A stretch of 64,000 bases of DNA from an uncultured Sulfitobacter sp. Lineage in GTDB: Bacteria; Pseudomonadota; Alphaproteobacteria; Rhodobacterales; Rhodobacteraceae. This document shows, in pieces, positions 34,012-50,806 of this stretch (within the stretch, counting starts at the first letter, position 1; every line of letters begins with the position of its first letter). Made by a program: the position numbers and the translations under genes. The stretch is from contig CANMZB010000012.1 in assembly GCA_947502265.1 (NCBI GenBank), positions 62,001 to 126,000 of the forward strand. Direction: 5' to 3'. The notes under the pieces are model-generated. The model had not been told where the DNA came from. It saw only the letters and a list, made by a program, of their open reading frames with translations, and made no database searches.

Positions 34012-34016
34012 GTTTA

Positions 34017-36017
34017 TCAAGCAACTTTCGGTTCTGTATTGTTGGCCCGCCATGCAACCAGCAGCGGGAGCGCGCATAGGGCCGCACCTATCAGGAAGGA
34101 GACGGTGTAGCCCATTTCAAGGATCTCGGTTTTCGGCTTGGCAATCATCACACCCCCGAAGAACAACAGCACCCGCAGCGGCAGACCGGCGGCACCGGTG
34201 AGGGGACCGACAAGGCTGACGTAGCCTTGCAGCGCGGCTGCGATCATCGCCACACCGATCAGCGCACAGGTGAGGGCGACGATGACTTCCCACGCGGGCG
34301 CCTGTCCGACCAATGCGGGATTGAGCACAAAGAAGAATGGCGCGATGTAGATCACACCGCCCAGACGCATCGCCTCGAAGCCGGTTGCGATCGGATTGGA
34401 GCCTGCCATGGTGGAGGCCGTGAAGGCACCAAGAGCGACGGGCGGGGTGATATAGCTGACCATACCCCAGTAAAGGATGAACAGGTGCACAGCGAGCTGG
34501 TTCAGTCCGCCCGCTTCGAGCGCGGGCGCTAGAACCACAGCAAGGAAGATATAACAGGCCGTGACCGTCATTCCCATGCCGAAGATAAACGCGGTCAGCG
34601 CGCCCATGAGCACCAGCACCAGTGTGTTGTCACCCGCAAGAAAGACCAGTTCGTTAACCAATGTGCCGGCAAGTCCCGTGGCAGAAAACGACCCGACGAT
34701 CAGGCCGACGCCCAGCAGGATGGCGGTCAGCTCTGCCAGACCCATGCCAACGCCGACGATCATATTGCCCAGTCGCTCCAGATTAAGACGGTGAGACGTG
34801 CGGAACTGGTTCACCACCAGCAAAAGAGCCGTGGCATAGAAGGGCGCGGATGTCTCGCGGCGCATGACGATCATCATGAACAACAGCAGCGCAAAGACGA
34901 AGATATAGGGCCAGCCCTCTTTCATCACCTGCCGAAGCACAGGCAGATCGGGCTTGGGCAAACCACGCAGGCCGCGCCGTGCGGAATAGCCGTCGATCTG
35001 CACGAAAAGGCTGAAATAATAGAGGATGCTGGGGATCGCCGCCGCCAGCGCAATTTCGACATAGGGGCGCGACAGGAACGATGCCATAATGAACGCCGTG
35101 GCCCCCATGATTGGCGGCATCAAAACGCCGCCGGTTGAGGCGCAGGCCTCTGTTGCGGCGGCGGTTTTGGCGGAGAATCCAGTCTTGCGCATGGCAGGAA
35201 TAGAGACGGCACCGGTCGTTAATACGTTGGAGATTACCGAGCCGGACATCGAGCCCATGAAACCGGAGGCAAAGATCGACACCTTTGCCGCGCCGCCCCG
35301 ATACCCCCCGACCAAGCCCAGAGCCAGATCATTGAAAAACTGCCCGCCGCCAGTGCGTTGCAGCACCGCGCCGAACAGGATGAAGCCGATGACAACGCCG
35401 CCGAAAGCTTTCATCGGGATGCCGAAAGAGCTTTCGGCGGAATAGATGTGATAGGGGACTGTCTGCATGAACGTGCTTTGGAAGCCCGAGAACGGGTCCG
35501 GCACATGTCCTGCAAAGGTCGGGTAGAACGCAAACAGCGTGACAATACAGAAAAGCACCAGCCCGCCCGCACGGCGCGTCGCCTCTAGGATCAGCAGGAA
35601 AAAGACGAGCGAAACATATTGCGCGGTCTGGGGTGCCGCATACTCCCAGCCCTGCGAAAGGTTGGCCTGTGCGGTCTGGCTTAGATAAACGGTGCTGGCG
35701 AGGGCCAGCGCAAAGAGAAACCAATCGAGCAGGGAGGGCGTGCCGCCCCTGCCGCCGCGAATCTGGAAGATGAGAAAAGCCAGAGCGAGATATAGTCCGC
35801 CCAATACATAAAGGTAGCGGCCATCAATCAGGACGATGCCCAGAATTTGTAGGTTAAAGAGCTGGTTGACCACCAGCAGCAACGAGAACAATGTTCCGGC
35901 AACAACCACCCAACGTGCCGGTCCGGCAATCCGCTCTGACGGGGTGCCACCGTCAATGGCGACTTCCTCAAGGCCCTTTGCGGACAAGGATCCGTCGGGG
36001 GTATTCTCGTTGGTCAT
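34017..36017 (-). CDS. TRAP transporter fused DctQM permease (TAXI type)
   Basis: A 666-aa integral membrane protein in which a DctQ-like four-helix N-terminal part (to about residue 180) is fused to a DctM-like part. DctM landmarks: FASGFMGSMSGSVISNVLTTGAVSIPAMRKTGF, TEACASTGGVLMPPIMGATAFIMASF, and the late YWGMVSYITPPVALGAFTASTMAGSNPIATGFEAMR. Such 4TM/12TM fusions go with TAXI-family binding proteins, one of which lies upstream. An intrinsic terminator at 36051-36077 lies between the two genes. Ligase and TPP-enzyme genes follow closely. Confidence 0.93.
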   Translation of the reverse strand: MTNENTPDGSLSAKGLEEVAIDGGTPSERIAGPARWVVVAGTLFSLLLVVNQLFNLQILGIVLIDGRYLYVLGGLYLALAFLIFQIRGGRGGTPSLLDWFLFALALASTVYLSQTAQANLSQGWEYAAPQTAQYVSLVFFLLILEATRRAGGLVLFCIVTLFAFYPTFAGHVPDPFSGFQSTFMQTVPYHIYSAESSFGIPMKAFGGVVIGFILFGAVLQRTGGGQFFNDLALGLVGGYRGGAAKVSIFASGFMGSMSGSVISNVLTTGAVSIPAMRKTGFSAKTAAATEACASTGGVLMPPIMGATAFIMASFLSRPYVEIALAAAIPSILYYFSLFVQIDGYSARRGLRGLPKPDLPVLRQVMKEGWPYIFVFALLLFMMIVMRRETSAPFYATALLLVVNQFRTSHRLNLERLGNMIVGVGMGLAELTAILLGVGLIVGSFSATGLAGTLVNELVFLAGDNTLVLVLMGALTAFIFGMGMTVTACYIFLAVVLAPALEAGGLNQLAVHLFILYWGMVSYITPPVALGAFTASTMAGSNPIATGFEAMRLGGVIYIAPFFFVLNPALVGQAPAWEVIVALTCALIGVAMIAAALQGYVSLVGPLTGAAGLPLRVLLFFGGVMIAKPKTEILEMGYTVSFLIGAALCALPLLVAWRANNTEPKVA

Positions 36018-36050
36018 GATTTGGCTCTCAACTGGGTCAGCGTGAAAAAA

Positions 36051-36077
36051 ACCGGCCGGCGTTGTCCGCCGACCGGT
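36051..36077 (-). terminator. Intrinsic terminator between TAXI binding protein and fused permease
   Basis: Eleven-base stem ACCGGCCGGCG/CGCCGACCGGT (one G-T pair) with a 5-base loop, followed on the minus strand by seven T, 19-45 bases past the binding-protein stop. Probably stops most transcripts after the SBP gene while some read through into the permease. Confidence 0.85.
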
Positions 36078-36095
36078 CGTATCAAGAGGCTCGGA

Positions 36096-37232
36096 TCAGA
36101 ATGTGACCTCGAAGCCGCCGTCTTTCAACGCCTGGCGGCGTGCGTCGGCCCATGCGGCTTCCCAATCGTCAGGGTTGATGGCATCCAGAGCGTTCCATGC
36201 CTCGGAAAGTGCTGTCTGCCGCGCGATCAGCTTGTCATTGTGGGCTTGCGCCGCATCCGTCCAGATACCCTGTTCTGTGTAATAACGGATAGCCCCGTCG
36301 TGGTAGGGAACAACCCATTCCAGATTCTGCTTGTCCATCGCCCAGCCGTCGATGCCGGGGGCTTTGCCCGCATAGCCGGGGAACAGTTCGACCATTGCTT
36401 TGGTCATGTTGTAAACAAGGCTCTCGTCGGTTTCTACAATCGCGGTCAGCACCGGATAGGCATAGCCCGCACCCTGATAACCGTCTGTGCCATCAATGTT
36501 CGCACCGACCGAGGCTTTGTTCGCGACAAAGAATGGAGCAATGGCGCTCATCGCCTTCAGACCTTCGGCATTGTCAGGATCAATCGGTGGCCAGAACAGG
36601 CCACGCGGACCTGCGGCAGCCTCATAGGCCCTGCCGGAGTTGGTGGAGGCGAACACCGCATCGACCTGATTTTCGATCAGACCTGTCCAGCTTGCGCCAA
36701 AGCCGCCGAAATCAACACGCTCGACATCATCCCAAGTCAGCCCGCCATAGGCGAGGTACGCTTGGGTATTCACGTTCAACGCAGGCGCGCCGACAATAAA
36801 GGCCACGCGCTTGCCCTTGAGATCCGAGTAGTTCTTGATGCCAAGATCGTCCGGCACGCCCACGGACAGGTTGATTTCGCCACCGTTGTTGGCCAACAGC
36901 ACGCGGATCGGCTGTGGCCCCCAGTTTTTGGCACCGAAGTCAAACACACCCTCTTGCGCCATATAGCTGCCGCCAACACCGGTGGCAGAAAATTGCACAC
37001 GCCCCTGACGCAGTGGTTCTGTGCGCGAGACGTCGTTTTTGCCGGGCAGCACCCGCAGGTTTACGCCCGTTGCGTCCTGCAAGGCGGCGCCAATGGCGAC
37101 CGCTTGGTTATAGCCTGCCGATCCGGTGTCGTAGGCTGTCCAGCTGAGTTGTTTTGGTAAATCAAATTCTTGCGCTGTGACCATCGTTGCCGACAGCCCC
37201 AGAACGGCGATTGCCGATGTAAGGTACTTCAT
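36096..37232 (-). CDS. TAXI family TRAP transporter solute-binding protein
   Basis: A 378-aa periplasmic protein: signal peptide (MKYLTSAIAVLGLSATMVTAQ), then LSWTAYDTGSAGYNQAVAIGAAL, LRVLPGKNDVSRTEPLRQGRVQFSATG and IKNYSDLKGKRVAFIVGAPALN, the standard TAXI order. The late FPGYAGKAPGIDGWAMD and VVPYHDGAIRYYTEQGIW are typical of this subfamily. The gene heads the operon for the fused permease, acyl-CoA ligase and TPP enzyme. Ligand unknown; a carboxylate later activated by CoA is plausible. A palindromic operator-like site lies about 77 bases upstream. Confidence 0.92.
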   Translation of the reverse strand: MKYLTSAIAVLGLSATMVTAQEFDLPKQLSWTAYDTGSAGYNQAVAIGAALQDATGVNLRVLPGKNDVSRTEPLRQGRVQFSATGVGGSYMAQEGVFDFGAKNWGPQPIRVLLANNGGEINLSVGVPDDLGIKNYSDLKGKRVAFIVGAPALNVNTQAYLAYGGLTWDDVERVDFGGFGASWTGLIENQVDAVFASTNSGRAYEAAAGPRGLFWPPIDPDNAEGLKAMSAIAPFFVANKASVGANIDGTDGYQGAGYAYPVLTAIVETDESLVYNMTKAMVELFPGYAGKAPGIDGWAMDKQNLEWVVPYHDGAIRYYTEQGIWTDAAQAHNDKLIARQTALSEAWNALDAINPDDWEAAWADARRQALKDGGFEVTF

Positions 37233-37554
37233 AGTGTCCTCCCTTTTATGGTTCTCCGAACCTGCCGAAACGACAGATGGTCCGGACCGGCGATAATCAT
37301 CGCTTTTTGAAACGACGTTTCGCTCTTCGGAATAGCGTAGGAGTTTTGCGTTTCAGTTGTCAACTGACGTTAAGTCAAAATAACCGATGATCGCGCGCAA
37401 GAAACGGCACCCTATCAGGCAGGCATTTGCGCGGGTGGGTGGCGCAGGCGTGGCGGAGATCAGCGCTTTGTCCGTCGTCCGCTACACTGCTTTGCACTAG
37501 ACCCTGCCTGTGCAAGGAATAGAACGGGGTATTCCCGCCGCCTGGAGGCCGCCG
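37233..37554. promoter_or_regulatory. Divergent promoter region with GAAACG-A-CGTTTC palindrome
   Basis: A 322-base gap between the TAXI operon (-) and selU (+). It contains the 13-base palindrome GAAACGACGTTTC at 37309-37321, with a half-site GAAACGAC at 37267-37274, resembling LacI/GntR/IclR-type operators. No matching regulator gene is adjacent. The remaining sequence shows no ORF I can support. Confidence 0.45.
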
Positions 37555-38601
37555 ATGATTCCGCACACCCTCACGTCACTATCCTCTATCGCCGAAATCG
37601 GTGCGGATATGATTATCGACGTGCGCGCACCGTCCGAGTTTGCCGTGGACCATGTGCCGGGCGCGGTCAACCTGCCGGTTTTGACGGACGCGGAGCGCGC
37701 CGAAGTCGGCACGATTTTCACCCGTAAAAGCGCGTTTCTGGCGCGCAAGGTCGGTGCCGCGCTGGTTGCCGCGAATGCCGCGCGCCATCTGCAAGGACCG
37801 CTTGCGCAGATGCAGGGTGATTGGCAGCCGTTGCTGTATTGCTGGCGCGGGGGCCAGCGTTCAGGTGCCTTTGCCACGATCCTCGATCAGGTCGGATGGC
37901 GGGTGCATTTGATCGAAGGGGGCTATCGCAGCTATCGCAAACAGGTGAGTACGATGCTGTATGATGCACCGCTGCCGCACCGGATCATGCTGCTTGATGG
38001 CGGGACCGGCACGGCCAAGACCGCATTGCTGCATTACCTGCGCGAGGCCGGTGCGCAGATACTTGATCTTGAAGGGTTGGCGGGGCATCGCGGATCGCTT
38101 TTTGGCGCGCTGGATGCCGCGCAACCGTCGCAAAAGATGTTCGAATCCCGTTTGGCGACGGCCCTAGGCGCGCTCGATCCGGCGCGGCTGACGTGGGTAG
38201 AGGGCGAAAGCAGCAAGATAGGCGCACGGATAATCCCGCCCGCGTTGTGGTCCGTGATGGGCGCGGCACCGCGGATCGAGGTCAGCGCACCGCTGCGCGC
38301 GCGCGCCGCGTTCCTCAGCAGCGCCTACGTCGACCTGACGCAAAACGCGGCGATGCTTGCCCGCCGGATTGACCAATTGCGCCCCTATCATGCGGCGGAC
38401 ACGATTGCGCTGTGGCAGGCGTTGGCCGGAGCAGCGGAGTGGGAGGTCCTTGCGCGCCACCTTATGGCCGAGCACTACGATCCGCGCTATGCCAAATCGC
38501 AGGCCCGCGCCGAACAAGCGCCAGAGCGTCTGGCGCTGGAGGCTCTGGACCCGCAGACGCTGAAGGGTGCGGCGCGCGATCTGATGGCGCGGTTCAGCTG
38601 A
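37555..38601 (+). CDS. mnmH: tRNA 2-selenouridine synthase SelU/MnmH
   Basis: A 348-aa enzyme that converts 2-thiouridine at the wobble position of some tRNAs to 2-selenouridine using selenophosphate. N-terminal rhodanese domain: MIIDVRAPSEFAVDHVPGAVNLP, with the catalytic cysteine in LLYCWRGGQRSGAFA near residue 90. C-terminal P-loop domain: MLLDGGTGTAKTALLHYL near 145-160, a relaxed Walker A in which the usual G-K-T is A-K-T, and GSLFGALDAAQPSQKMFES. The start follows TGGAGG. It uses the product of SelD, whose gene converges on it with an 8-base overlap of stops. Confidence 0.93.
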   Translation: MIPHTLTSLSSIAEIGADMIIDVRAPSEFAVDHVPGAVNLPVLTDAERAEVGTIFTRKSAFLARKVGAALVAANAARHLQGPLAQMQGDWQPLLYCWRGGQRSGAFATILDQVGWRVHLIEGGYRSYRKQVSTMLYDAPLPHRIMLLDGGTGTAKTALLHYLREAGAQILDLEGLAGHRGSLFGALDAAQPSQKMFESRLATALGALDPARLTWVEGESSKIGARIIPPALWSVMGAAPRIEVSAPLRARAAFLSSAYVDLTQNAAMLARRIDQLRPYHAADTIALWQALAGAAEWEVLARHLMAEHYDPRYAKSQARAEQAPERLALEALDPQTLKGAARDLMARFS

Positions 38602-40759
38602 CGTGAACCGGCCCCGTCCCGTCGAACAGTTCTCCGATGATCCAACCGGCGCCCCCCTTTGCATGCAATAGGGCGCGCGCGGTTTCGGCCGCGTCCCGTG
38701 GCAGCGCGGCAAGCAGACCACCTGCGGTTTGCGGGTCATGCAAGAGCGGATCGGCGACGCCTGTTGCCGGTGCGTCCGCGAGGTTGGCCGCCAGCAGCGA
38801 CGATTGCACGCCGCGATCCGACAGATCCCGCGCGCCGTCATAAAGCGGCACCTTGTTGCGCCAGATGTCGGCGCGCAGGCCCGAAGCCGTACAGATCGCC
38901 TGCACATGTCCGGCAAGGCCAAAGCCCGTGGTATCTGTCATCGCATGCGCGCCACTCAAAACCCGCGCCGCGATGTGCTGTGGTTGTTCCATGATCGCCA
39001 GCATGTCTGCAACCACATGGGCAGGCGCGCAGCCCGCCATGTGGGCGGCAAGGATTACGCCCGAACCAATGGGCCGCGTCAGCAGCAAAACATCCCCCGC
39101 GCGCGCGCCTGCAACCGTGATTGGCATCTGTTGCCGCACCCCCGTCACGGTAAATCCGATGGTCATTTCCGCGCCCATGGTGGTATGCCCGCCAACCACC
39201 GCTGCCCCTGCTCGGGCAAAGACCGCTTGGGCGGTGTCGTTGATTTCACGCAAGGTCCGCTCCTGAAGCGCGGGCGACATGCGCGGCAAAACGATGCTGG
39301 ACAAGGCGGCTTGGGGCGTGGCGCCCATCGCCCAGATGTCGCCAAGCGCGTGGATCGCGGCAATGCGCGTCATCTGCACCGGATCTTCGATGAACGCGCG
39401 CAGATGATCCGTGCTGAGCACCTGAAAACCGCCACCGGGCTGGCGCAGGATTGCGGCATCGTCGCCCGGCCCCGTGACAGTATCGGGCTGCATGCGGTCA
39501 GGTGCAGGCCCAAGGCCGCTTTTCAGGACTGTGCTGCCGACCTTGGCACCGCAGCCACCGCACAGCGGTATGGTCTGCGTGCCATCGCGCACCCCCAAGG
39601 CGACGGTCGAGGGCAGGGCAGGTGCGGGCATTGCGGGAAGGGTGTCCATCTTGTCCATAAACGCGTGGTCGATCCGGTTTTTCCAGCGCCACAACAGCGG
39701 CGCGGCAAGGGCGACTCCGAATTTTTCCGCCAGTGCCGATTTACCGCCAAGCGAGATCAGTTTGAGATAGGATTTTTGCGGATGGAACGGCTTGAGCGGA
39801 CCACCCGACAGGGCGGCGCGCAAATTGTGATAAAGTACCGGTGCCGCGCGCACGGCGAACACACCGGCCTTGGGGCGCGGCGCGAACGGCATGTGCGCGC
39901 AATCGCCCACGGCGAAAACCTGTGCATCGCCTTTGACGCGCAGATCAGGGTCAACCACGATAAACCCGTCGTCCTGCGGCAGGTCTGTCTGTGCGATCCA
40001 CGCGTGCGCAAACGCGCCAGCAGCCCCCACGCACAGCGCCGCCGGAACTGGCGGCTGACCGGCGAGGGTGATTTCATCTGCGTGGATATGCTCGATCTGC
40101 GCATCTGGCACGAAGGTGACGCCGAGACCCGTCATTGCGGCGTGTAGCTTTGCCCGCGCAGACGGGCCGACACCGGATATGTCCGCGCCGGCTTCGATCA
40201 CGGTGATTTGCGGCGTGACCGCGCGTTGGCGCAGGGCAAACGCCATCGCCATCGCCAATTCACATCCTGCCACACCGCCGCCGATCACGGCGATGGTTGG
40301 CGGCTTTGCTCCGCTTTCCACCGCATCCAGAAACCCGCGCCATGCGCGCGCATAAATATCCAGCGGCTTGGCCCCGACGCCATGTTCCGCAAATCCGGGG
40401 ATACCCATCCGTGCGGTGATGCCAATGTCGATAGAGGCCACGTCATAGGCGACCGGCCCGCGCCCTTCGACGTGGATCAGCCGCGCGTCACGGTCGATAC
40501 CGGTTGCGTGTGCAAGGATCAGCCGCGCACCGGCAAAACGGGCGAGGCGCATCAAGTCAATTTCAAGCGTGTCGCGGCTGTAATGACCTGCGACATGGCC
40601 GGGCAACATGCCGGTGTAGGGCGCAGTGGGGCCGGGATTGATCAACGTCAGCCGCGCACCGGGCAGCGGGTTCATCCCCCATTTTCGCAGCACCAGCGCG
40701 TGGGCGTGGCCACCACCGACAAACACCAGATCGCGGGTGAAGGGCGTGGCGTTCAGCAT
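38594..40759 (-). CDS. selD: Selenide, water dikinase SelD fused to FAD/NAD(P) oxidoreductase
   Basis: A 721-aa two-part protein. Residues about 1-360 form an NDH-2-like pyridine-nucleotide disulfide oxidoreductase domain: DLVFVGGGHAHALVLRKWG, AVIGGGVAGCELAMAMAFA, FAVGDCAHM. Residues about 390-721 are SelD, which makes selenophosphate from selenide and ATP: LCGGCGAKVGSTVL carries the catalytic Cys and Lys (Cys, not Sec), then GPGDDAAILRQPGGGFQVLSTDHL, AIHALGDIWAMGATPQAAL and VVGGHTTMGAEMTIGFTVTG. The N-terminal domain may supply reduced selenium. Start MLNATPFTRD chosen by alignment to the domain edge; the ribosome site is weak. It serves both SelA and SelU. Confidence 0.93.
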   Translation of the reverse strand: MLNATPFTRDLVFVGGGHAHALVLRKWGMNPLPGARLTLINPGPTAPYTGMLPGHVAGHYSRDTLEIDLMRLARFAGARLILAHATGIDRDARLIHVEGRGPVAYDVASIDIGITARMGIPGFAEHGVGAKPLDIYARAWRGFLDAVESGAKPPTIAVIGGGVAGCELAMAMAFALRQRAVTPQITVIEAGADISGVGPSARAKLHAAMTGLGVTFVPDAQIEHIHADEITLAGQPPVPAALCVGAAGAFAHAWIAQTDLPQDDGFIVVDPDLRVKGDAQVFAVGDCAHMPFAPRPKAGVFAVRAAPVLYHNLRAALSGGPLKPFHPQKSYLKLISLGGKSALAEKFGVALAAPLLWRWKNRIDHAFMDKMDTLPAMPAPALPSTVALGVRDGTQTIPLCGGCGAKVGSTVLKSGLGPAPDRMQPDTVTGPGDDAAILRQPGGGFQVLSTDHLRAFIEDPVQMTRIAAIHALGDIWAMGATPQAALSSIVLPRMSPALQERTLREINDTAQAVFARAGAAVVGGHTTMGAEMTIGFTVTGVRQQMPITVAGARAGDVLLLTRPIGSGVILAAHMAGCAPAHVVADMLAIMEQPQHIAARVLSGAHAMTDTTGFGLAGHVQAICTASGLRADIWRNKVPLYDGARDLSDRGVQSSLLAANLADAPATGVADPLLHDPQTAGGLLAALPRDAAETARALLHAKGGAGWIIGELFDGTGPVHVS

Positions 40760-40923
40760 CTGGGGGAAGCGGGGTTGGCAAGGGCTGTTGTCATGGCAAT
40801 GTTTTGCCCGCTTGGCGCGGGAATGTCCAAGGCCGATACTGCACTTCTTTGCGAGGTGGAGATGTGTTGCTCTCACCGGGTCGCCCCGCGCGCGTGGCGC
40901 AGGGCGATGTTTTTTGGACGGCT

Positions 40924-41445
40924 TCAGTTTTCCGTCAGCGCCGCGATGATCTGCTCAAACGCTTGCGCGGCTTTGATCCGCATCTCATCGTCTGACGCAT
41001 CCTGTATCGGATGCGGAACCAGCACATAACGCGCGTTATTCATGCCAAGCGCACGTCGCTGGTGTTCGGCGGCTTCGCCGAATTCGCTGGACGCGATGGC
41101 CACTGCCGGGATCCCCTGGATTTCAAACCAGACATTGTCGTGCATACTGCACGTTGTGCAGGATCCTCAGTCGGCCAGCGCTTCGATCACAAGATCGCAG
41201 TTATCGCGGATCTCGTGCCTAAGCGCATCTGGACACGGCTTGGTAAACGTCGGCTTGGTATAGCGGCGCACCGAGACATCGGGGGCCTTTTTCGCCAGCA
41301 GTTTTTCCAGCTCGTCCAGCATGATGTTGCCGCGCGGCTTGCTGATATCCAGCAGGCCGATCACGCCGGACAAGCCGCCGGTCCTTTCGGTGATTTGTCG
41401 CTCGACCGGTGATCGCTCGTCGGTCGGGTCGAGAATTGTTGTCAT
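40924..41445 (-). CDS. UGSC-family selenoprotein (in-frame UGA = selenocysteine)
   Basis: A 173-aa selenoprotein read through an in-frame TGA at 41169-41167 (residue 93). The two halves are in the same frame: MTTILDPTDERSPVERQITE... to CDLVIEALAD, then U-G-S-C-T-T-C and SMHDNVWFEIQGIPAVAIASS. Ribosome site AAAGGAGGA precedes the ATG. The motif names the UGSC selenoprotein family, first reported from marine metagenomes. The U-x-x-C-x-x-C arrangement also matches glycine reductase protein B, where Sec forms the catalytic centre. A bacterial SECIS hairpin lies at 41139-41153. The final stop is also TGA. It is 24 bases after a thioredoxin-fused partner gene and sits among selD, tRNA-Sec, selB and selA. 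Substrate unknown; a redox or reductase role is inferred. Confidence 0.92.
41139..41169 (-). promoter_or_regulatory. Bacterial SECIS element in the UGSC selenoprotein mRNA
   Basis: From the UGA (41169-41167) the minus-strand message has CGTGCA-GTA-TGCACG (41153-41139): six base pairs and a 3-base apical loop GUA starting 20 bases after the UGA. A small loop beginning with GU at 16-37 bases from UGA is the described bSECIS pattern recognised by SelB. An overlapping alternative stem CTGCAC-AAC-GTGCAG is possible but its loop lies too close to the UGA. Confidence 0.82.
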
Positions 41446-41469
41446 AAACTGTCTCCTCCTTTGGTCAAT

Positions 41470-43059
41470 TTACCCCAGATCTATCTTTTTGGAAACCGAC
41501 ACCGATCCGACCTCGCCCGTGGCCCATCCATGGAACGCGGACGAAAATTTGCCCGCGTCCGATCCTGCCACGACGATGTGGATATAATCGGTGCTGGCGA
41601 ATTTCGGAACGGATTGCGCAAGCGCCTCCGGCCCCATCTCTTCGGCAGTTGCTTGCGGAATACCTGCGCCGGATGTTTCGTCCGCGACCATCTCGGACAG
41701 CGGGCGGGAGGTGACTTCCTGTATCCGTTCGCGCAGCCGGTCCTTGGAATAATCGCCCTTCCGCGTCAGCGTGTCGATGTGTTCGGGGCAGACCACCAGC
41801 AGGGCGTCCACCGGAAGGTTTCTGAGTTTTGGCAGAAACACCCCTTCGAGACCAAGGCCAAGAGAGCCTGCGATCTGGTCCGGTGCGCGCGATGTCTGAT
41901 CAACGATGTGAACCGGTCCGCCGGTCATCGCAAACACCGTCACGACAGAATCTTGTGGATCAAACCCGCGTTCGACATGTAGCGCGGGCCAGGGAGAGCG
42001 TTCTTCCCATTCCGCAAAACACATGGTGAATTTCATCGGGTTGCCAAGCGTCGAGCGTTCGACCCCGCCGGTTGATGCACCGCCAACGTTGCGTACAACC
42101 AACCGGACGGCCCGCCCGATGGTGGCATTGGCGCGGTTGCCCGCCCCCAAGGCCCCCAATTTCATGTTCATCCCGATTTTTTCACGAATCGGGCCGTTGA
42201 TTACCATGACAGGGGCGGCGCCCATTGTGGTTGCAGTTACGCCGTGGATGTTGAATTCATCGGTACAGACGGCTTCGACGGCGGCAATGATGACGGGCAG
42301 GTATTCCGGCTTGCATCCTGCCATCACCGCGTTGATCGCGATTTTTTCAACTGTCGCCTCGCCCATGTTGGGCGGCACGGTGGCGATCACGTCTTGCGGA
42401 GCACGGTGGGTGCCGCCCAGCATCCGCATCACCCGCTCGGGTGTGGGCGCGACAAGCGGCAGGCCGTCGGAAAACCCCTGATCAAACATGAACTCGGCCA
42501 CGTCGTCGCTGCTGGCGACATCAATCCGGCGCGCGTGGATCGGGCTGCCGTCAGCCTCGGCGCGTAACTTGTCGTAGATCGCGGGATCAAGGTGTTTCGA
42601 GCCGCAACCGGGGCGCCATGCGGGCAGGCTGGCCCAGTCGATCTGCGCGGCGGGCAGGGCCGTTTGCGCGCTTATATCGGCAGCGAGCGTTTCCCAGTCT
42701 GTGCGGATGAACCCTTCGAACTGTGACAGGACGGTTCCTGTCGCGTCGATCCAGAAGACGGAAGGGACGCTTTCGATGTCCCACGCAAAGGCGGTTTTGC
42801 ACGGAGTATCGTCAAGGACCGGCATCGACAGCGCGTGGCGCGCGGCGAATGTTGCATTGTCGTCGCCTGATTGCGCGATCAACAGGACGTCCACTGCGCT
42901 GCCGAAGGCTTTGTGCAACGCCTCCAACACGGGGGCGGCGGTGTTGCAAGTGGCGCAATCTTCTTTGACGAAACAAATCAGGCCGGGCCGGTTTTTGGGC
43001 AGGCTGTGGGGGTTCCCGCCCAGATCGTTCAGTTGAAAATGCGGCTGTTGGTTGCTCAT
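41470..43059 (-). CDS. Thioredoxin-like domain fused to UGSC-partner domain
   Basis: A 529-aa protein starting MSNQQPHFQLNDLGG after GGGAGGGCCGAC. Residues 1-150 form a thioredoxin/peroxiredoxin-like domain with the redox pair CATC (C35, C38) in ICFVKEDCATCNTAAP and the cis-Pro loop IESVPSVFWID. The remaining 350 residues are a conserved uncharacterised domain: FSDGLPLVAPTPERVMRMLGG, NMGEATVEKIAINAVMAGCKPEYLPVI, NIHGVTATTMGAAPVMVINGP and GALGAGNRANATIGRAVRLVVRNVGG. It is translated just before the selenoprotein on the same transcript, so it probably binds it; the Trx domain is well placed to reduce the Sec centre. Larger-domain chemistry is unknown. Confidence 0.8.
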   Translation of the reverse strand: MSNQQPHFQLNDLGGNPHSLPKNRPGLICFVKEDCATCNTAAPVLEALHKAFGSAVDVLLIAQSGDDNATFAARHALSMPVLDDTPCKTAFAWDIESVPSVFWIDATGTVLSQFEGFIRTDWETLAADISAQTALPAAQIDWASLPAWRPGCGSKHLDPAIYDKLRAEADGSPIHARRIDVASSDDVAEFMFDQGFSDGLPLVAPTPERVMRMLGGTHRAPQDVIATVPPNMGEATVEKIAINAVMAGCKPEYLPVIIAAVEAVCTDEFNIHGVTATTMGAAPVMVINGPIREKIGMNMKLGALGAGNRANATIGRAVRLVVRNVGGASTGGVERSTLGNPMKFTMCFAEWEERSPWPALHVERGFDPQDSVVTVFAMTGGPVHIVDQTSRAPDQIAGSLGLGLEGVFLPKLRNLPVDALLVVCPEHIDTLTRKGDYSKDRLRERIQEVTSRPLSEMVADETSGAGIPQATAEEMGPEALAQSVPKFASTDYIHIVVAGSDAGKFSSAFHGWATGEVGSVSVSKKIDLG

Positions 43060-43125
43060 GTCGGCCCTCCCGTATGACAGAACCATATTGAAGGTGATAT
43101 TAGAGTAATGTCCAGCCCGTGCAGA

Positions 43126-43220
43126 TGGCGGAGGTGGATGGGAATCGAACCCACCACACGCCGTAAAGGCGCGTCCGTGGTTTTGAAGACCAGGGAAGCC
43201 ACCAGACTCCAGTCACCTCC
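43126..43220 (-). tRNA. selC: tRNA-Sec (anticodon UCA)
   Basis: A 95-base tRNA including an encoded CCA end (43128-43126). Acceptor GGAGGTG pairs with CACCTCC; the anticodon stem-loop TGGTC-TTCAAAA-CCA contains UCA, complementary to UGA; there is a long variable arm (ACGGACGCGCC-TTTA-GGCGTGTGG region), a TTCGATT T-loop, and discriminator G. The eighth acceptor pair is an A-C mismatch. Length and long variable arm are those of tRNA-Sec. It lies between selB and the selenoprotein partner gene in the same orientation, an unusual intra-operon position. Confidence 0.95.
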
Positions 43221-43271: not shown

Positions 43272-45161
43272 CTAGAAATCTTTGGCGACAGCCATCCGGC
43301 GCGCGTCACCATTGCGGATTGTCACACCGCAACTGTCGAAATGTTCCAGCACCGGCACGATGATTCGGCGGGTGGTGGCAAGCGCGCTGCGGGCCTGCGA
43401 GGTTGTGAACGTTTGTGGCGGGGCAAATGCAGCAGACAGAACGCTGGCGGCCTGGGCCAGGGTGTTGGTGTGAAGGATCAGCGTTTGCTTTAGCGCGACG
43501 TTACGCAGGGGTACCAGAGCGTCGAGGTCGATCAGAAGATCGAACAGGTCTTGATCAAGGCGGTCTTGCACCACGCTTTCGGTTGCGGGCGGCGACAATC
43601 CCGCTTCGCGAAACGCGTTTTCGATATCTGTTAGTCTTGCGCGTTGCACCGTGTTCAACACGGCCACGGGGTTGTGGCTGCTCGCGGCGAGGCGGTTGTC
43701 GTGTTGGCGGATTTGCCCGCTGGCACAAAGCGCGTCTGTGATGTGGCGCAGGAGGGCAGGAGACAGGGCGGGAAACGTGATCGCCGCTTTCGGGGCCATT
43801 GAGCGAAGCGGGAATCTGGTGTGATAGGCGGCGAGCGCCTTCATAACGTCTGTCTTGCCCGCCTTGACCGCTTCGTCCGGTGCGATCAGGTCCGCATCGA
43901 GGTTCTGAAATCCGTCACCGAGCGTAACGCGCGCCGATTGCGCCGTCACGCGGCCAAGGCGGGCAACATCCGCAAGGCGTGCAACGCCGCCGTTTGCATC
44001 GCTCAGCGCCGTTGCGATGCCTGCAACGGCGTGCAGATGCGCGGCCTGTAGAGCGCACAGGCGACCCTTGTCACCGGACCGTGAAGGCATTGCCTGTGGA
44101 TCAAGAATGACAGCCCCGCCTATCGTTTCGGCGGGCGACAGCCGCCGCAAGACTGCCCGCTGACCGGCAAAAGCCGTCACCGGTTTTTTAAACCGCAACT
44201 GGACGAAACCGGCATCCGCAGGCGCGATCCGGCCACCGCCAAACAGGCGGACACTCGCGACGGCGCTGGTCGTGCCGAACGATACGCGCACCTCTTCCAT
44301 GTGCTTCAACGCCCGTGTCACCGAAGGCTGCAATGTCACGCGCGCGTCGATACATGCGGATGGCGCGCCCGCGCCGCCCGTGCAGAGCACCGCACCGCGG
44401 GCGATGTCACTCACGCCAACGCCGCGCAGATTAACAGCAACGCGTTCGCCGGCATGAACCGTGTCGCGTGCTGTGCCGCGGCTGTGCAGGCCGCGGATCG
44501 TGGCGGCCTGACCGGCAGGCTGCACCATCACCGCGTCTTCGACAGATAACGCATGGCCAAGCAGGGTGCCGGTGACGATTGTGCCGCGTCCGGGCAGGGA
44601 GAACGCGCGGTCAACGGCCAAAAAGCCATGAAGAGGAGCCCAAGGCGCATCAGCATCCAGTAGCACCGCCTGTAACGCCGCATGCAGATCGTCGATCCCG
44701 TCGCCCGTAATCGCGGAGCATGTGACAAGCGGAGCGTCTGCAAGCGGCGTTCGGGCAAATGCGGCGCGGATTTCGATCAGGCGGGAAGCCAGTTGCGCAG
44801 GGGGGAGCAGGTCGGATTTGGTGACGGCGATGACGCCGCGTGTGATGCCGAGCAGCTTTGCGATGCTCACATGCTCCAGTGTCTGTGCGCCAATGCCTTC
44901 AGCCGCCGAGATCACGACCAGCGCCGCGCGTGCACCGGTTGCACCCGAGATCATCGCTGGAATAAAATCCTCGTGCCCGGGCGCGTCTATAAAATCAATG
45001 ATGCCGTCCGGATAAGCATAATGCGCAAAGCCGGGGGTGATGGACAGGCCGCGCGCTTTTTCTTCAGGCAGGCGGTCGGTGTGGATTCCGGTGAGGGCGT
45101 GCACAAGCGATGTTTTCCCGTGATCGACGTGCCCGATCACAACGATACAACAGGTTTTCAT
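43272..45161 (-). CDS. selB: Selenocysteine-specific translation elongation factor SelB
   Basis: A 629-aa GTPase that delivers Sec-tRNA to UGA codons bearing a SECIS. G1 IGHVDHGKTSLVHALTG at residues 9-25, G2 region RLPEEKARGLSITPGFAHY, G3 IDFIDAPGHEDFI, G4 VTKSDLL, then EF-Tu-like domains 2-3 and a C-terminal set of winged-helix domains (from about residue 440) that bind the SECIS RNA. The C-terminal winged-helix part, ending RRIIVPVLEHFDSCGVTIRNGDARRMAVAKDF, is complete. Its ATG overlaps the selA stop by 4 bases, so the two are coupled. tRNA-Sec lies 51 bases downstream. Confidence 0.96.
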   Translation of the reverse strand: MKTCCIVVIGHVDHGKTSLVHALTGIHTDRLPEEKARGLSITPGFAHYAYPDGIIDFIDAPGHEDFIPAMISGATGARAALVVISAAEGIGAQTLEHVSIAKLLGITRGVIAVTKSDLLPPAQLASRLIEIRAAFARTPLADAPLVTCSAITGDGIDDLHAALQAVLLDADAPWAPLHGFLAVDRAFSLPGRGTIVTGTLLGHALSVEDAVMVQPAGQAATIRGLHSRGTARDTVHAGERVAVNLRGVGVSDIARGAVLCTGGAGAPSACIDARVTLQPSVTRALKHMEEVRVSFGTTSAVASVRLFGGGRIAPADAGFVQLRFKKPVTAFAGQRAVLRRLSPAETIGGAVILDPQAMPSRSGDKGRLCALQAAHLHAVAGIATALSDANGGVARLADVARLGRVTAQSARVTLGDGFQNLDADLIAPDEAVKAGKTDVMKALAAYHTRFPLRSMAPKAAITFPALSPALLRHITDALCASGQIRQHDNRLAASSHNPVAVLNTVQRARLTDIENAFREAGLSPPATESVVQDRLDQDLFDLLIDLDALVPLRNVALKQTLILHTNTLAQAASVLSAAFAPPQTFTTSQARSALATTRRIIVPVLEHFDSCGVTIRNGDARRMAVAKDF

Positions 45162-46549
45162 GAGCCTGAAATACGCTCCAGAGCTGTGACAATCAACGGT
45201 AGTTCGCCGTCGGACACGGTGCGCATATCCAGCATGACATGCGCGCGTTCGATCCGCCCGATCACCGGCATATCACTGTGCCGCAGCGCTGCCATCAATT
45301 GGTCGGGCGACAAGGCCGGCAACCGGACTGCCACTGCGAAGCTTGGCAAATCCTGTTCCGGCAGACTGCCACCGCCAACGAGAGCGGCGCTTTTTTCTAC
45401 GGCAACGCCCTTGATCCCGATGCCTGACAGCGCGTCCGCCAGCAGCGTCGCACGGTGGTGAACGTCTGCCACTGGTTCGGCAAGCATCCGCAGCACGGGA
45501 ATTTCCGAAACCGGATCAAAGGGCGCGCTGTAAAGGCGCAGCGTTGCTTCAAGAGCGGCCAGCGACAGCTTGTCGATGCGCAGCGCGCGCATCAGTGGAT
45601 GTGATTTCAGGCTGGCGATGATGTCGCGCCGCCCTGCGATGATCCCCGCCTGAGGGCCGCCCAGCAGCTTGTCGCCCGAAAACATCACCAGATCGACACC
45701 GGCCTTCAGAATGTCGGCGACGACGGGTTCGTCCGTCAGCCCGTAAGGCGACAGATCAATCAACACGCCGCTGCCGAGGTCTTCGATCAGGATGACATTC
45801 CGGTCTGCCGCCAGCCGCGCAAGGTCGCTGCGCGCTGGAGAAGAGGTGAAGCCGACGATCCTGAAATTGCTGGTATGACTTTTCAAAAGGACGGCGGTGT
45901 TATCATCAATGGCATCCTCGTAATCGCCAAGCCGCGTCTTGTTTGTCGTGCCGACCTCGCGCAGGGTGGCCCCGCTTTGCGCAATCACGTCCGGCAGACG
46001 GAACGAGCCGCCGATCTCGATCAGCTCGCCGCGCGATGCGACAACACTGCGCCCGCCCGCCGTCGCCATCAGGCTAAGGAGGACAGCGGCGGCACAATTG
46101 TTGACCACAACAGCGGCATCGGCACCGGTAAGATCACAGATCAGTTTTTCGACATGTGCGTGACGCGACCCGCGTTTTCCAGTCGCCAGATCGAGTTCGA
46201 GATTGGAAGGCGCAGCACCCGCCGCCTGCATCGCGCGGACGGCTTGCGGGGCCATCCGCGCCCGCCCCAGATTGGTGTGGATGATAATGCCGGTCGCGTT
46301 GATTACGGGCCTCAAAGACGGTGCGCGCGCCGCTTCGATTTTGTCGGCAACCTTTGCTGCAAAGGCGGGGCTGGCAAAATCGGGAAGTTCGATCGGGCCT
46401 TGCGCGAGAAGGGCTGTACGCAGAGTGCCGGTAATTTTTCTCAGCGCGCTGACGGTTTCGGCGTGACTGTAACGCTCCGCCAGGGCAGCGATGGAAGGGT
46501 GGTTCAGCACAGCCTGTATCTGCGGCAGATCTTTGAGGTTCCCGGCCAT
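45158..46549 (-). CDS. selA: L-seryl-tRNA(Sec) selenium transferase SelA
   Basis: A 463-aa PLP enzyme converting Ser-tRNA(Sec) to Sec-tRNA(Sec) with selenophosphate. N-terminal tRNA-binding part DLPQIQAVLNHPSIAALAERYSH, then INATGIIIHTNLGRARM, TGADAAVVVNNCAAAVLLSL, the Schiff-base lysine in MFSGDKLLGGPQAGII (residue near 294, as in E. coli K295) and C-terminal LVGGGSLPEQDLPSFAVAVRL. Length matches E. coli SelA. It is first of the minus-strand selA-selB-tRNA-Sec-partner-selenoprotein-selD series, starting about 80 bases after the RTX gene. Confidence 0.96.
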   Translation of the reverse strand: MAGNLKDLPQIQAVLNHPSIAALAERYSHAETVSALRKITGTLRTALLAQGPIELPDFASPAFAAKVADKIEAARAPSLRPVINATGIIIHTNLGRARMAPQAVRAMQAAGAAPSNLELDLATGKRGSRHAHVEKLICDLTGADAAVVVNNCAAAVLLSLMATAGGRSVVASRGELIEIGGSFRLPDVIAQSGATLREVGTTNKTRLGDYEDAIDDNTAVLLKSHTSNFRIVGFTSSPARSDLARLAADRNVILIEDLGSGVLIDLSPYGLTDEPVVADILKAGVDLVMFSGDKLLGGPQAGIIAGRRDIIASLKSHPLMRALRIDKLSLAALEATLRLYSAPFDPVSEIPVLRMLAEPVADVHHRATLLADALSGIGIKGVAVEKSAALVGGGSLPEQDLPSFAVAVRLPALSPDQLMAALRHSDMPVIGRIERAHVMLDMRTVSDGELPLIVTALERISGS

Positions 46550-46630: not shown

Positions 46631-49600
46631 TTAATAACTGAAAATATCATCGAACAACTGCTCGTCGTCGTCGGTGGGAACATCTGTCTCCTCGGGGTCT
46701 TCAGGAAGAAACAGGGCGCTCATGATGTCTTCGGCTACTGTGGTGCTTTCGGGGGGCAAATCGGTGCTTTCCTCAACCGGAGCCGCACTTTGCCAGTCAG
46801 AGCCGGTTTCCGACACAACCAGTTGAAAGGCGTCATTGCTGATTTCGCTGCCGTCTTCGTCGATGCCCAGAACCGACACTTCATAGATGTGGTCGCCGTT
46901 CACATCCCAGATCTGGTCATAAGCAGGGTTGAACCAACTCTTGTTGCTGATTGCGCCGGTCTCGGCGTCCATGTCGAAATGGCCCGCATCCGGCCCCTCC
47001 AAAGCGTAAGTGGACCCGATGCCGCCCGCACCATCAAACGGGTCGAAAGCGCCTGCCGGTTCTACGGGATCAGAGTCATCTTCGTCGGCGGGTTCCGCAT
47101 CACGCCAGAAGGTATCGGTTTGCGTGACCACCAGTTCCAGATCGCTGCTGCTGACCTCGGCTCCGGTCGGGTCGCTGCCAAGCAGTGACACTTCATAGAT
47201 ATGGTCGCCGTTCACATCCCAGACCTGATTGTAGTCGGGTGTGAACCAATCCTTGTTGCTGATTTCACCGGATTCGGAGTCTACGTCGAAATGACCTGCG
47301 TCCGGTCCTTCCAGTGTGTAGGTGACGCCGGTCCCGTCGCCGGGGTCAATCGGATCGACAGGATCGACTGGATCAATAGGGTCCACCGGATCAACGGGGT
47401 CAATCGGATCGACAGGATCAACGGGGTCGACCGGATCAACTGTGTCGTCGCCTGCGTCACGCCAGAAGGTATCGGTTTGCGTGACCACCAGTTCCAGATC
47501 TTCGCTGCTGACCTCGGCTCCGGCCGGGTCGGTGCCAAGCACGGAGACTTCATAAATATGGTCGCCGTTCACATCCCAGACCTGATTGTAATCAGGGGTG
47601 AACCAGTCCTTGTTGCTGATTTCACCGGTTTCGGAGTTTACGTCGAAGTGGCCCGCATCCGGCCCGTCCAAGGTGTAGGTGACGCCGGTGCCATCGCCAG
47701 GGTCGATAGGATCAACCGGGTCGATAGGGTCCACTGGATCGACGGGCACAGTCAGATCCCCTGTCAGCGAAAAATCATCCGCCTGCAACGGTGCGCCAGA
47801 TTGGATCGCAACGACCAGATTGCCGTCCGTGACGTTCAAGGTCAGGGTCGTGATGTCGCCGTTAACGCTCATCGCAGCCGAGAGCGCCTCGGCGGTGTCA
47901 TAACCGGCAAGCTGTGACAGGTCGATCAGGTCAGCCGCGCCATTGGCCCCGAAATCGGTGATCTGCACGCTGCCCGGTACGTCTTGGAGCACAAAGACAT
48001 CATCGCCGTCGCCGCCGGTCAGGATATCGTCGCCCGCACCGCCATCAAGAATGTCGTTACCAGCCCCGCCATTCAGCTGGTCATTGCCGTCGCCGCCAAA
48101 CAGCGTGTCGTCGCCATTGCCCGAATTCATTATGTCATTGCCGGCACCGCCCTCGGCATAAAAAGACGACCCCGCACTGGCCCCGTCAAGGAAGTCATTG
48201 CCTGCGTCGAGGAAAATCCTGTCAGAGTCTTCGTGAACGCCGATAAACACCAGATCATTGCCGTTGCCGCCGTGTATTTCATCATTGCCCTGACTGCCCG
48301 CCAGAGTGTCGTTGCCGTCACCGCCATAGACCGTGTCGGTGCCGATGCTGCCGATGAGCGTGTCGTCACCGTCTTCACCGTAGATCAGATCATCCCCGTC
48401 ACGTCCAAATACGTGGTCATCACCGGCACCCGCGTTGATATGGTCATTGCCATACAGGCCTTCTATCTCGTCGTTGCCGTTGCCGCCCAGCAACGTATCA
48501 TCGCCGTATCCGCCGCGTAGGGTGTCTGCGCCATCGCCCCCTTCAAGGGAATCGTTGCCCGCATCACCGATCAGCGAGTCGTTACCGCCAAGCCCCAGAA
48601 TGACATCCGCACCCTCGCCACCGGTCAGGACATCATCGCCTTCGGTGCCGGTCTGTGTCGTTACGTCAACCGGATCAGGGACAATGGCCAAAGTCTCAAA
48701 GTCCTGCGCGCCATCGGTCGGCGTGAAGCTGGTGCCGGTTGACAGCGCAACCTGCACGCCCTGATCGTGAAAGCCGACGAGATCCGCCATGCCGTCACCG
48801 TTCACATCGGCCACGCTGCGGGTGTCTTGCGACTGGGTCCAGCCGCTGGTGTTTGTCCAAAGCGCCGCCTCATCGAACCCCGCGCCATTCGAGGTGGCGA
48901 CATAAACGCCGTCCGCGCCGAAGGAGACGATATCGGCCATGCCGTCGCCGTTCACGTCCGCCGCATCACGCGCATATTGCGCGCCGTTCCAGTTGCTGCC
49001 TGCGTCGGGTTCTGAAAGCCATGTTTCACCTGACGCAAAGCTTGCGCCGGTGGAAAGGGCGACCGTTACGCCGGTGCTGTCGAAACCGATGATGTCGTCC
49101 CGCCCGTCGTCGTTTACATCCGCCAATAGCCGCGCGTCGGCGGCCATGTGCCATCCATCGTCAGAGCCGAATTCATCCGACCAGATTTGCCCAGTTTCGA
49201 ACCCTGATCCGGTCGAAAGCGCGACAGTCACACCTTGATCGGTGAAGGCCACGACATCGGCCATTCCGTCCCCGTTGACATCAGCGGATTCACGTTCGCC
49301 GTCTTCGTGGGGGCCAAATTCACTGGACCAGCTTTCAACGGGGGCAAAGCCCGCGCCATCAGAGAGAGCGACGGTGACACCACCATCCCCGAAGCCCACG
49401 ACATCGGCCATGCCATCGCCGTTCACATCGGCCAGTTCACGGTCATCTGCACCCGCAGTTCCGGAGAAATCGCCGCTTCCGGCCGTGCTGCCCACAAAAC
49501 GGGTGCCGTCCGACAGGGCCGTGATAACGGAACTTTCTGCGAAACCGACAACATCCGCCTGACCGTCACCGTCGATATCCGCCAGATCGCGGTTGTGGTG

Positions 49601-50485: not shown

Positions 50486-50806
50486 CTCAATTACCTCTTC
50501 AGCATGATTTGTACTATAATTAGCGACTGTTAGAACGATCAAATTGCCCGCATGCAAGGGCCAAGAATCTGAGGGAATTGTTAAAATACTGTAAAAACAG
50601 ATTGTTAGGTGTGATTTAAGAAAGGTGAGTAAAGGCTTGGCTCTCAATTGAGGCGAGAAAACGGCAAGTGCGGGAAACGATCCCAGGTGTGGCGCGGGAT
50701 TGTGCCGCACTTATCTTCCGAAAACCGAACCCGAACAGCGAATCAATCCGGTCGGGGCGGGCGGTTTCGGAGAGTGTCACAGCATGAAGCCTTGCGAGGG
50801 GCGGGA
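50486..50806 (-). promoter_or_regulatory. Promoter region of the RTX gene
   Basis: A 321-base AT-richer gap between dadA and the RTX gene. On the minus strand TTGATC (50542-50537) and TATAGT (50518-50513) are 18 bases apart and resemble a sigma-70 promoter, about 30 bases before the RTX start. A short CTGTTTTTACAG dyad lies near 50593-50604. No ORF is supported here. Confidence 0.5.

Follow-up and report, generated by a model that had tools for sequence, protein, structure and literature searches.

The gene at 40924-41445 on the minus strand of the window (the whole 64,000-nucleotide stretch of uncultured Sulfitobacter DNA that was analysed) appears split by an in-frame UGA, but is most probably a single gene whose product is a selenium-containing protein of the UGSC family. 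This product is likely the selenocysteine (Sec) subunit of a thioredoxin-driven enzyme that reduces a small metabolite, a role that we infer. Taking the parts together, we lean slightly towards the joint reading that the gene is a genuine selenoprotein gene and that UGSC and its neighbour, a thioredoxin (Trx)-UNK1 protein, form one thioredoxin-driven reductase with Sec chemistry like that of GrdB and PrdB. The family was reported from marine metagenomes, as the original prediction stated; the 2008 survey that catalogued it found it relatively more frequent in non-marine samples and suggested a Trx-like fold (PMC2398784). UGSC is among the most frequent selenoprotein families of ocean metagenomes, with 8.2% of selenoprotein genes (PMC9402790), and a 2026 review lists it among selenoproteins with largely uncharacterised functions (PMC13188914). 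The window holds a compact set in about 8 kb, made up of selA, selB, tRNA-Sec, selD, Trx-UNK1 and UGSC. The features are as follows.

40924-41445, minus strand: UGSC-family selenoprotein gene (predicted), 173 aa, Sec at residue 93, stop TGA at 40924-40926
41167-41169, minus strand: UGA predicted to be read as Sec (U93 of the U-G-S-C-T-T-C motif)
41139-41153, minus strand: core hairpin of the bacterial SECIS, nt 17-31 (U of the UGA = 1); stem CGUGC/GCACG plus an A-U pair, loop GUA
41453-41460, minus strand: ribosome-binding site aggaggag, read from the sequence, ahead of the ATG at 41445
41470-43086, minus strand: partner gene, 538-aa ORF, thioredoxin/AhpC-like N-terminus and C-terminal domain UNK1
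about 42622-43086, minus strand: thioredoxin/AhpC-like domain with a C-A-T-C motif (AhpC-TSA, 2e-9, residues 12-119)
41473-42621, minus strand: UNK1 domain (name coined here), the C-terminal part, no family matched
43126-43220, minus strand: tRNA-Sec (ARAGORN; Rfam RF01852, 72.9 bits)
43272-45161, minus strand: selB (TIGR00475, 270.5 bits, cut-off 242.25)
45158-46549, minus strand: selA (TIGR00474, 576 bits)
38594-40876, minus strand: Ndh-like/SelD fusion (selenophosphate synthetase; TIGR03169, 496.5 bits, and TIGR00476, 284.6 bits)
37510-38601, plus strand: mnmH, tRNA 2-selenouridine synthase (NF008752, 432.7 bits)

Read from 41445 to 40924, the gene consists of 92 codons opening with ATG, the TGA at 41167-41169, 80 further codons and a TGA stop, and starts 24 nt behind the end of the upstream partner gene. 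The read-through product is MTTILDPT...EALADUGSCTTCSMHDNVWFE...ALTEN; without recoding, the gene falls into two mechanical ORFs of 92 aa (41167-41445) and 73 aa (40924-41145). The original prediction gave the correct coordinates, without the strand, and the sequence agrees with its description of two same-frame halves joined by a single TGA into 173 aa with Sec at residue 93, behind a strong ribosome site. The read-through matches PF24696 with an E-value of 9.8e-49 and 166.2 bits, against a Pfam gathering score of 25 bits, and NF041046 with 179.7 bits, above the NCBIfam equivalog cut-off of 125; the UGSC-family identity first proposed is thus borne out above both curated cut-offs. The PF24696 match runs over residues 3-171 (profile positions 1-171 of 172), across both halves. 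The Sec/Cys-G-S-C signature, invariant in an alignment of 43 UGSC sequences when C is read for U, is present as UGSCTTC. Comparison with relatives (the recurring UGA, the hairpin behind it, purifying selection on both halves and SelB in genomes with UGA forms) strongly supports the reading as a genuine UGSC-family selenoprotein gene, with a real read-through of a kind already known.

Among 211 pattern matches of a genome scan, 141 places encode relatives, and the best 80 were taken as named loci. These best 80 are 61-87% identical and come from Sulfitobacter, Planktotalea, Phenylobacterium/Caulobacteraceae, Hyphomonas, Gammaproteobacteria and others. Together with the window's own place (L001), L002-L005 and L007, they make up 86 loci hit by tblastn. 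The codon for residue 93 is TGA in 83 of the 86, L001 included, and TGC in three rows (L003, L005 and L007, the last two being one place counted twice). The Cys-type copy of L005/L007, in genome G205, has its halves in different frames and a further in-frame stop, as a pseudogene or an assembly error would. Sec aligns to Cys in homologues (L003, L005, L114, L115 and the plasmid loci L172, L173 and L175-L179), which is the check that had been proposed for this gene. All 83 close genes, L001 again included, have ATG at position 1. Their terminal stop is TGA in 41, TAG in 24 and TAA in 17, with one gene running off its contig; many close genes therefore use UGA both for Sec and as stop. At this place TAG and TAA together are as common in relatives as TGA, which makes the final UGA of the window gene an ordinary stop. 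Compared with close relatives, dN/dS is 0.06-0.23 upstream of the Sec (8 of 9 pairs; dS was saturated in one) and 0.07-0.26 downstream (9 of 9 pairs). Purifying selection acts on both halves in the nine comparisons, and the impression of conserved sequence on both sides of the TGA holds.

The hairpin behind the UGA pairs C17-G31, G18-C30, U19-A29, G20-C28, C21-G27 and A22-U26 around a GU(A/C/U) loop. The set in which it was analysed consists of the window and 102 of the 103 sequences extracted by pattern from L001-L116, with GSCTTC after the UGA in 80 of the 103; its counts omit, among others, L031 (UGSCMTC), L088, L107, L108 and L113, although UGA is present in them. All six pairs are kept in 80 of 80 close sequences (the window and 79 loci). 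A single pair varies (G-C in 56, G-U in 18, A-U in 6), and CAT accompanies the ACA codon in 6 of 6. The Ser codon over the loop is AGT in all 80, compared with 27 of the 503 Ser codons at other positions of 79 of these genes. Every one of the 61 distinct sequences, which are related by descent and hence not 61 independent events, has all pairs and the GU loop, whereas synonymous shuffles gave six pairs in 10.9% and six pairs with the GU loop in 1.7%. Each pair is present in 17 to 20 of 20 more distant UGA forms, and in the Cys forms L003, L114 and L115 the stem as a whole is not conserved, with single pairs remaining. The bacterial SECIS model describes a loop of 3-9 nt with G in the first two positions, a stem of 4-16 bp, a distance of 16-37 nt from the UGA and an MFE <= -7.5 (PMC13188914). 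The window hairpin lies within all of these limits, with loop AGUAU or GUA, a stem of 5-6 bp, 18-19 nt from the UGA, and -10.1 kcal/mol for 51 nt.

Truncation of such genes by standard annotation had also been foreseen, and this holds for at least one record: on plasmid p2-T1 of Acidovorax sp. T1 (L174; NZ_CP021650.1, 70245-70535) the annotation reduces a UGA-type copy (UGSCTSW) to a hypothetical protein of 97 aa that stops at the Sec UGA. On the other hand, a curated model for the family now exists at NCBI. The remainder of that gene, in frame with UNK1, has no feature in the annotation table examined, a table incomplete by design.

The UGSC gene of the window lies between selA-selB-tRNA-Sec and selD-mnmH, and the Sec machinery said to flank it is indeed there: selA, selB, tRNA-Sec, the Ndh-SelD fusion and mnmH. 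Beside this island, a 1359-aa ORF (46631-50710, minus strand) has many GGxGxD-like repeats and, read by eye, resembles calcium-binding repeat proteins. Beyond mnmH (32437-37232, minus strand) are a DctM-type TRAP permease, an NMT1-like binding protein and an AMP-binding enzyme, which could be, but need not be, connected with the UGSC substrate. Among the 80 close loci, tRNA-Sec is present in 51 and relatives of the window SelA, SelB or SelD in 52; with full flanks, 40 of 55 loci have such relatives, and the other 15 carry UNK1-UGSC (14 with the Trx domain) without SelA, SelB or SelD within flanks of about 5 kb. SelB scored above cut-off in 9 of 295 genomes of the window's family (Rhodobacteraceae), and three of the 295 (G000, G113 and G212) carry UGA-type UGSC; the TGA in the copy of G205 stands at a position other than that of Sec. 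Two of the three are among the nine SelB-positive genomes; in G113, the remaining one, a SelB-like frame of 738 aa scores below cut-off and a SelB wing domain is present. Among the 35 UGSC-matching genomes, the SelB wing was found in 28 of 30 with UGA-form UGSC, a count that includes G320 without a check of its UGA position; the two genomes without it are assemblies of 77% and 86% completeness. The wing was found in one of four genomes with only Cys forms seen, with no detection in G014, G205 and G617, and was not found in one genome with a weak partial UGSC match. As for another selenoprotein family, the window's own genome has 11 Fdh-alpha matches, none with an in-frame stop.

The usual genetic neighbour of UGSC is UNK1, fused here behind a thioredoxin-like domain with a CxTC motif. 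UNK1 adjoins UGSC in 79 of 80 close loci, the sole exception beginning at a contig edge; the Trx domain is present in 74 of the 80, and the CxTC motif in 80 of 88 partner N-termini examined. Searches of UNK1 against PDB, Pfam and NCBIfam gave chance-level matches only. In an alignment of 38 UNK1 sequences, 13 columns do not vary, including those of DG.P, N.V.AG and GP. The UNK1 profile found the domain in 20 of 21 distant-paralogue or Cys-form loci, taken from 28 fetched (L153, L155, L156, L157, L161, L163 and L169 were left out), including 8 of 8 plasmid loci outside the profile build; no UNK1 was seen in L160, which is the same place as L102. In L116 and L174 a single frame, interrupted by the Sec UGA alone, carries both UGSC and UNK1. 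Long open frames in L106 and L110 were considered as UGSC-UNK1 fusions, which we do not claim; the UNK1 of L106 has its own stop and lies in another frame. A UGSC/'Unknown_1' fusion was reported in the 2008 survey (PMC2398784), and our name UNK1 does not imply identity with it. In many distant paralogues the Trx domain was not seen within the roughly 3.5 kb examined. Of 7 annotated plasmid loci, 3 have trxB in or near the UNK1-UGSC cluster, all of Cys type: those of Roseovarius sp. THAF8, Arthrobacter sp. ERGS1:01 (which also has trxA) and Variovorax sp. SRS16. It was not found in the other four, among them the 3 haloarchaeal loci. The nearby trxB/trxA in those three loci is the unfused counterpart of the fused Trx domain.

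The closest likeness of the Sec region was found by profile comparison. In hhalign, 111 UGSC sequences against 15 PrdB/GrdB-like sequences gave P 8.3e-6 (1.4e-5 earlier, with fewer members), in an alignment of 93 columns that places Sec on Sec and brings the E..GIP and HP/P motifs into register. The best P among 16 valid control families was 0.018 for UGSC and 0.0068 for the PrdB/GrdB-like profile, some control families being antisense frames; the value of 0.0068 came from the SelD-fusion family, which gave 0.034 with UGSC, and reversed profiles gave 0.17-0.60. At the level of single sequences, GrdB-type NCBIfam models hit 4 of 10 distant UGSC members (GrdF 0.0043, gly_red_sel_B 0.0054-0.041, various_sel_PB 0.026, PrdB 0.11) in similar register, at about 12-16 bits and far below the curated cut-offs; in one, L106, residues 79-129 (Sec 93) fall on GrdF 337-386. 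A scan of 43 close members had GrdB-type models as 4 of 11 non-self models. Unrelated models score alike in the same scans (allantoicase 0.043, CheD 0.022, thiE 0.026), so these single-sequence hits prove little by themselves. UGSC does not reach the curated cut-offs of the GrdB/PrdB models (PF07355, TIGR01917, TIGR01918, TIGR04483), with best single hits at E 0.0043-0.11 and no PF07355 hit among the 43 members. The 173-aa protein aligns with the C-terminal part of GrdB only, and the N-terminal part (TIGR01917 before about 320) is absent. UNK1 was considered as that missing N-terminal half and rejected, with P 0.28 against the PrdB/GrdB-like profile. A GRDB search found no match in the window's own genome or in any control genome. 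The profile comparison, at a match probability of 80-84%, is good evidence that the Sec region of UGSC shares ancestry with the catalytic C-terminal end of GrdB/PrdB, though no evidence of family membership.

PrdB/GrdB-like proteins are present in 21 of 29 UGSC-bearing genomes at E up to 0.1. Twelve copies were extracted by pattern from 33 loci, 11 with UGA in a UPVCH motif and one (L146) with TGC; the 11, in genomes that also carry UGSC, are L120, L127, L129, L130, L135, L137, L138, L142, L144, L147 and L149. Three Cys forms of the set are secure PrdB relatives (7e-24 to 3.7e-23), one of them also matching GrdF at 7.6e-14. Against PDB, neither UGSC nor one PrdB-like protein matched anything at E up to 10. 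No thioredoxin model is among the Pfam and NCBIfam hits of the 43 UGSC members at E up to 10, scans in which the HMMER filters remove most hits above 0.1. The UGSC profile gave P 0.092 against the Trx domain, and with no profile match a thioredoxin fold for UGSC is unsupported.

The gene is found in 31 of 337 genomes of the window's class, with up to 8 copies per genome. Its copies lie near TRAP, TTT and ABC importers, CoA transferases, hydantoinases and TauD/PhyH dioxygenases, and near phosphosulfolactate synthase in two. A survey of neighbour genes for a substrate gave varied genes, none naming one; one ORF set in it was crude, with antisense frames in high-GC DNA, and missed several UGSC genes. 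These neighbourhoods and the multiple copies fit substrate-specific catabolism. The two phosphosulfolactate synthase genes stand near UNK1-UGSC on plasmids of unrelated organisms (L173, Arthrobacter; L176, Natrinema zhouii), a possible hint of C-S chemistry. DUF6282 genes lie near Cys-type UGSC on three haloarchaeal plasmids (L176, L177 and L178), and hydantoinase/oxoprolinase genes near UGSC in L151 (HyuA and HyuB), with the same ORF cluster in L154 and L160. Among Cys-type motifs, CGSCTSW, CGSCSSW, CGSCTGW, CGSCTAA and CGSSASF lack the third Cys, which CGSCCSC and CGSCSSC keep; as several Cys versions do without it, C99 is possibly dispensable.

How might such a protein work? SelB and tRNA-Sec very probably decode the UGA at 41167-41169 as Sec, with the hairpin that follows it as the directing signal, and UGSC and Trx-UNK1 would act as one enzyme. 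Sec93, with Cys96 and perhaps Cys99, could then attack a small substrate held by UGSC/UNK1 and cleave it reductively, with UNK1 building the substrate site. By analogy with the GrdB/PrdB systems, C96 and C99 may resolve the intermediate, and the fused Trx domain may reduce the Se-S bond, a step for which some Cys-type versions may use a TrxA/TrxB pair from neighbouring genes. Because the Sec region is apparently homologous to the C-terminal end of GrdB/PrdB, the chemistry should resemble that of glycine, sarcosine, betaine or D-proline reductase. Copies in other genomes, up to eight in one genome, occur with importers and CoA-metabolism genes, which is what one would expect of catabolic enzymes with specific substrates.

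Other explanations start from the same observations. Mechanical ORF calling splits the gene, as it would if the TGA were a true stop, leaving a pseudogene or a functional 92-aa protein with the second half as a separate gene. We rejected this as extremely improbable on the conservation of the UGA across Alpha- and Gammaproteobacteria, with Cys in its place elsewhere, on the hairpin with its codon constraint, and on purifying selection on both halves. If the gene does encode a selenoprotein, its position inside the sel island, and the frequency of SelA/SelB/SelD relatives and tRNA-Sec at the close loci (52 and 51 of 80), would suit a factor that supplies or assimilates selenium for SelD/MnmH, for instance by reduction of a selenium compound to selenide. 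That role seems quite unlikely given the 15 full-flank loci that lack SelA/SelB/SelD nearby, the Cys forms in genomes without a detected SelB wing (G014, G205 and G617) and on haloarchaeal plasmids, and the paralogues in catabolic neighbourhoods.

In 2008 the family was proposed to act as a general thiol-disulfide (thioredoxin-fold) oxidoreductase or in peroxide handling, a reading that draws on the UxxC motif and on the fused Trx/AhpC domain next door. No Trx-family model appears among the hits of the 43 members, however, and the profile P of 0.092 for the Trx domain stands against 8.3e-6 for GrdB/PrdB-like sequences. UNK1 beside nearly every copy and the numerous paralogues also suggest substrate-specific enzymes, and we hold the general oxidoreductase to be unlikely. 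For the thioredoxin-driven substrate reductase, a wider proposal can be made, to which we give somewhat less than an even chance: UGSC and UNK1, with fused or nearby thioredoxin, may be a class of selenium-dependent substrate reductases not recognised so far, which would form a branch of the glycine/proline reductase superfamily outside anaerobic fermenters. Its hosts would be Proteobacteria of marine and fresh waters, while actinobacteria and haloarchaea would carry Cys versions, and it would have expanded to up to eight paralogues per genome, each for its own imported substrate.

What is added beyond the known family is the conserved two-part UGSC-UNK1 unit, the thioredoxin link and the GrdB/PrdB relation, by which the function of a common orphan selenoprotein becomes testable. 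In the portions of the published sources available to us there is no statement of a UGSC-GrdB/PrdB link, of a Trx link or of the constancy of the partner, and such a statement may stand elsewhere. Should the Sec region prove GrdB/PrdB-like and act together with UNK1 and thioredoxin, the family would move from an orphan 'redox protein' to a testable reductase with named parts.

Compared with the UGSC family as described (PF24696/NF041046; PMC2398784), the window protein would be a full member, with the UGSC motif, Sec and SECIS, and no difference was found. With Trx-fold selenoproteins (Trx-like, and Prx-like with UxxC) UGSC has the UxxC motif and the redox context in common, but no sequence relation was detected. 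The comparison with GrdB/PrdB goes further. GrdB is a substrate-binding subunit with a UxxCxxC motif, thioredoxin is the reductant in glycine reductase, and D-proline reductase (PrdB) carries out a reductive ring cleavage (PMC13188914). The UxxCxxC spacing of GrdB is that of UGSCTTC. GrdB/PrdB systems have a pyruvoyl partner of the GrdE/PrdA type. Like GrdB, GrdF and GrdH (selenoprotein B of glycine, sarcosine and betaine reductase) and PrdB, UGSC has Sec in register in a UxxCxxC-type motif, which comes after E..GIP and HP/P motifs, and a thioredoxin context. Unlike them, it scores below the curated cut-offs, has no N-terminal GrdB part and has UNK1 as its partner, and its hosts are marine Rhodobacterales and other Proteobacteria, not clostridia.
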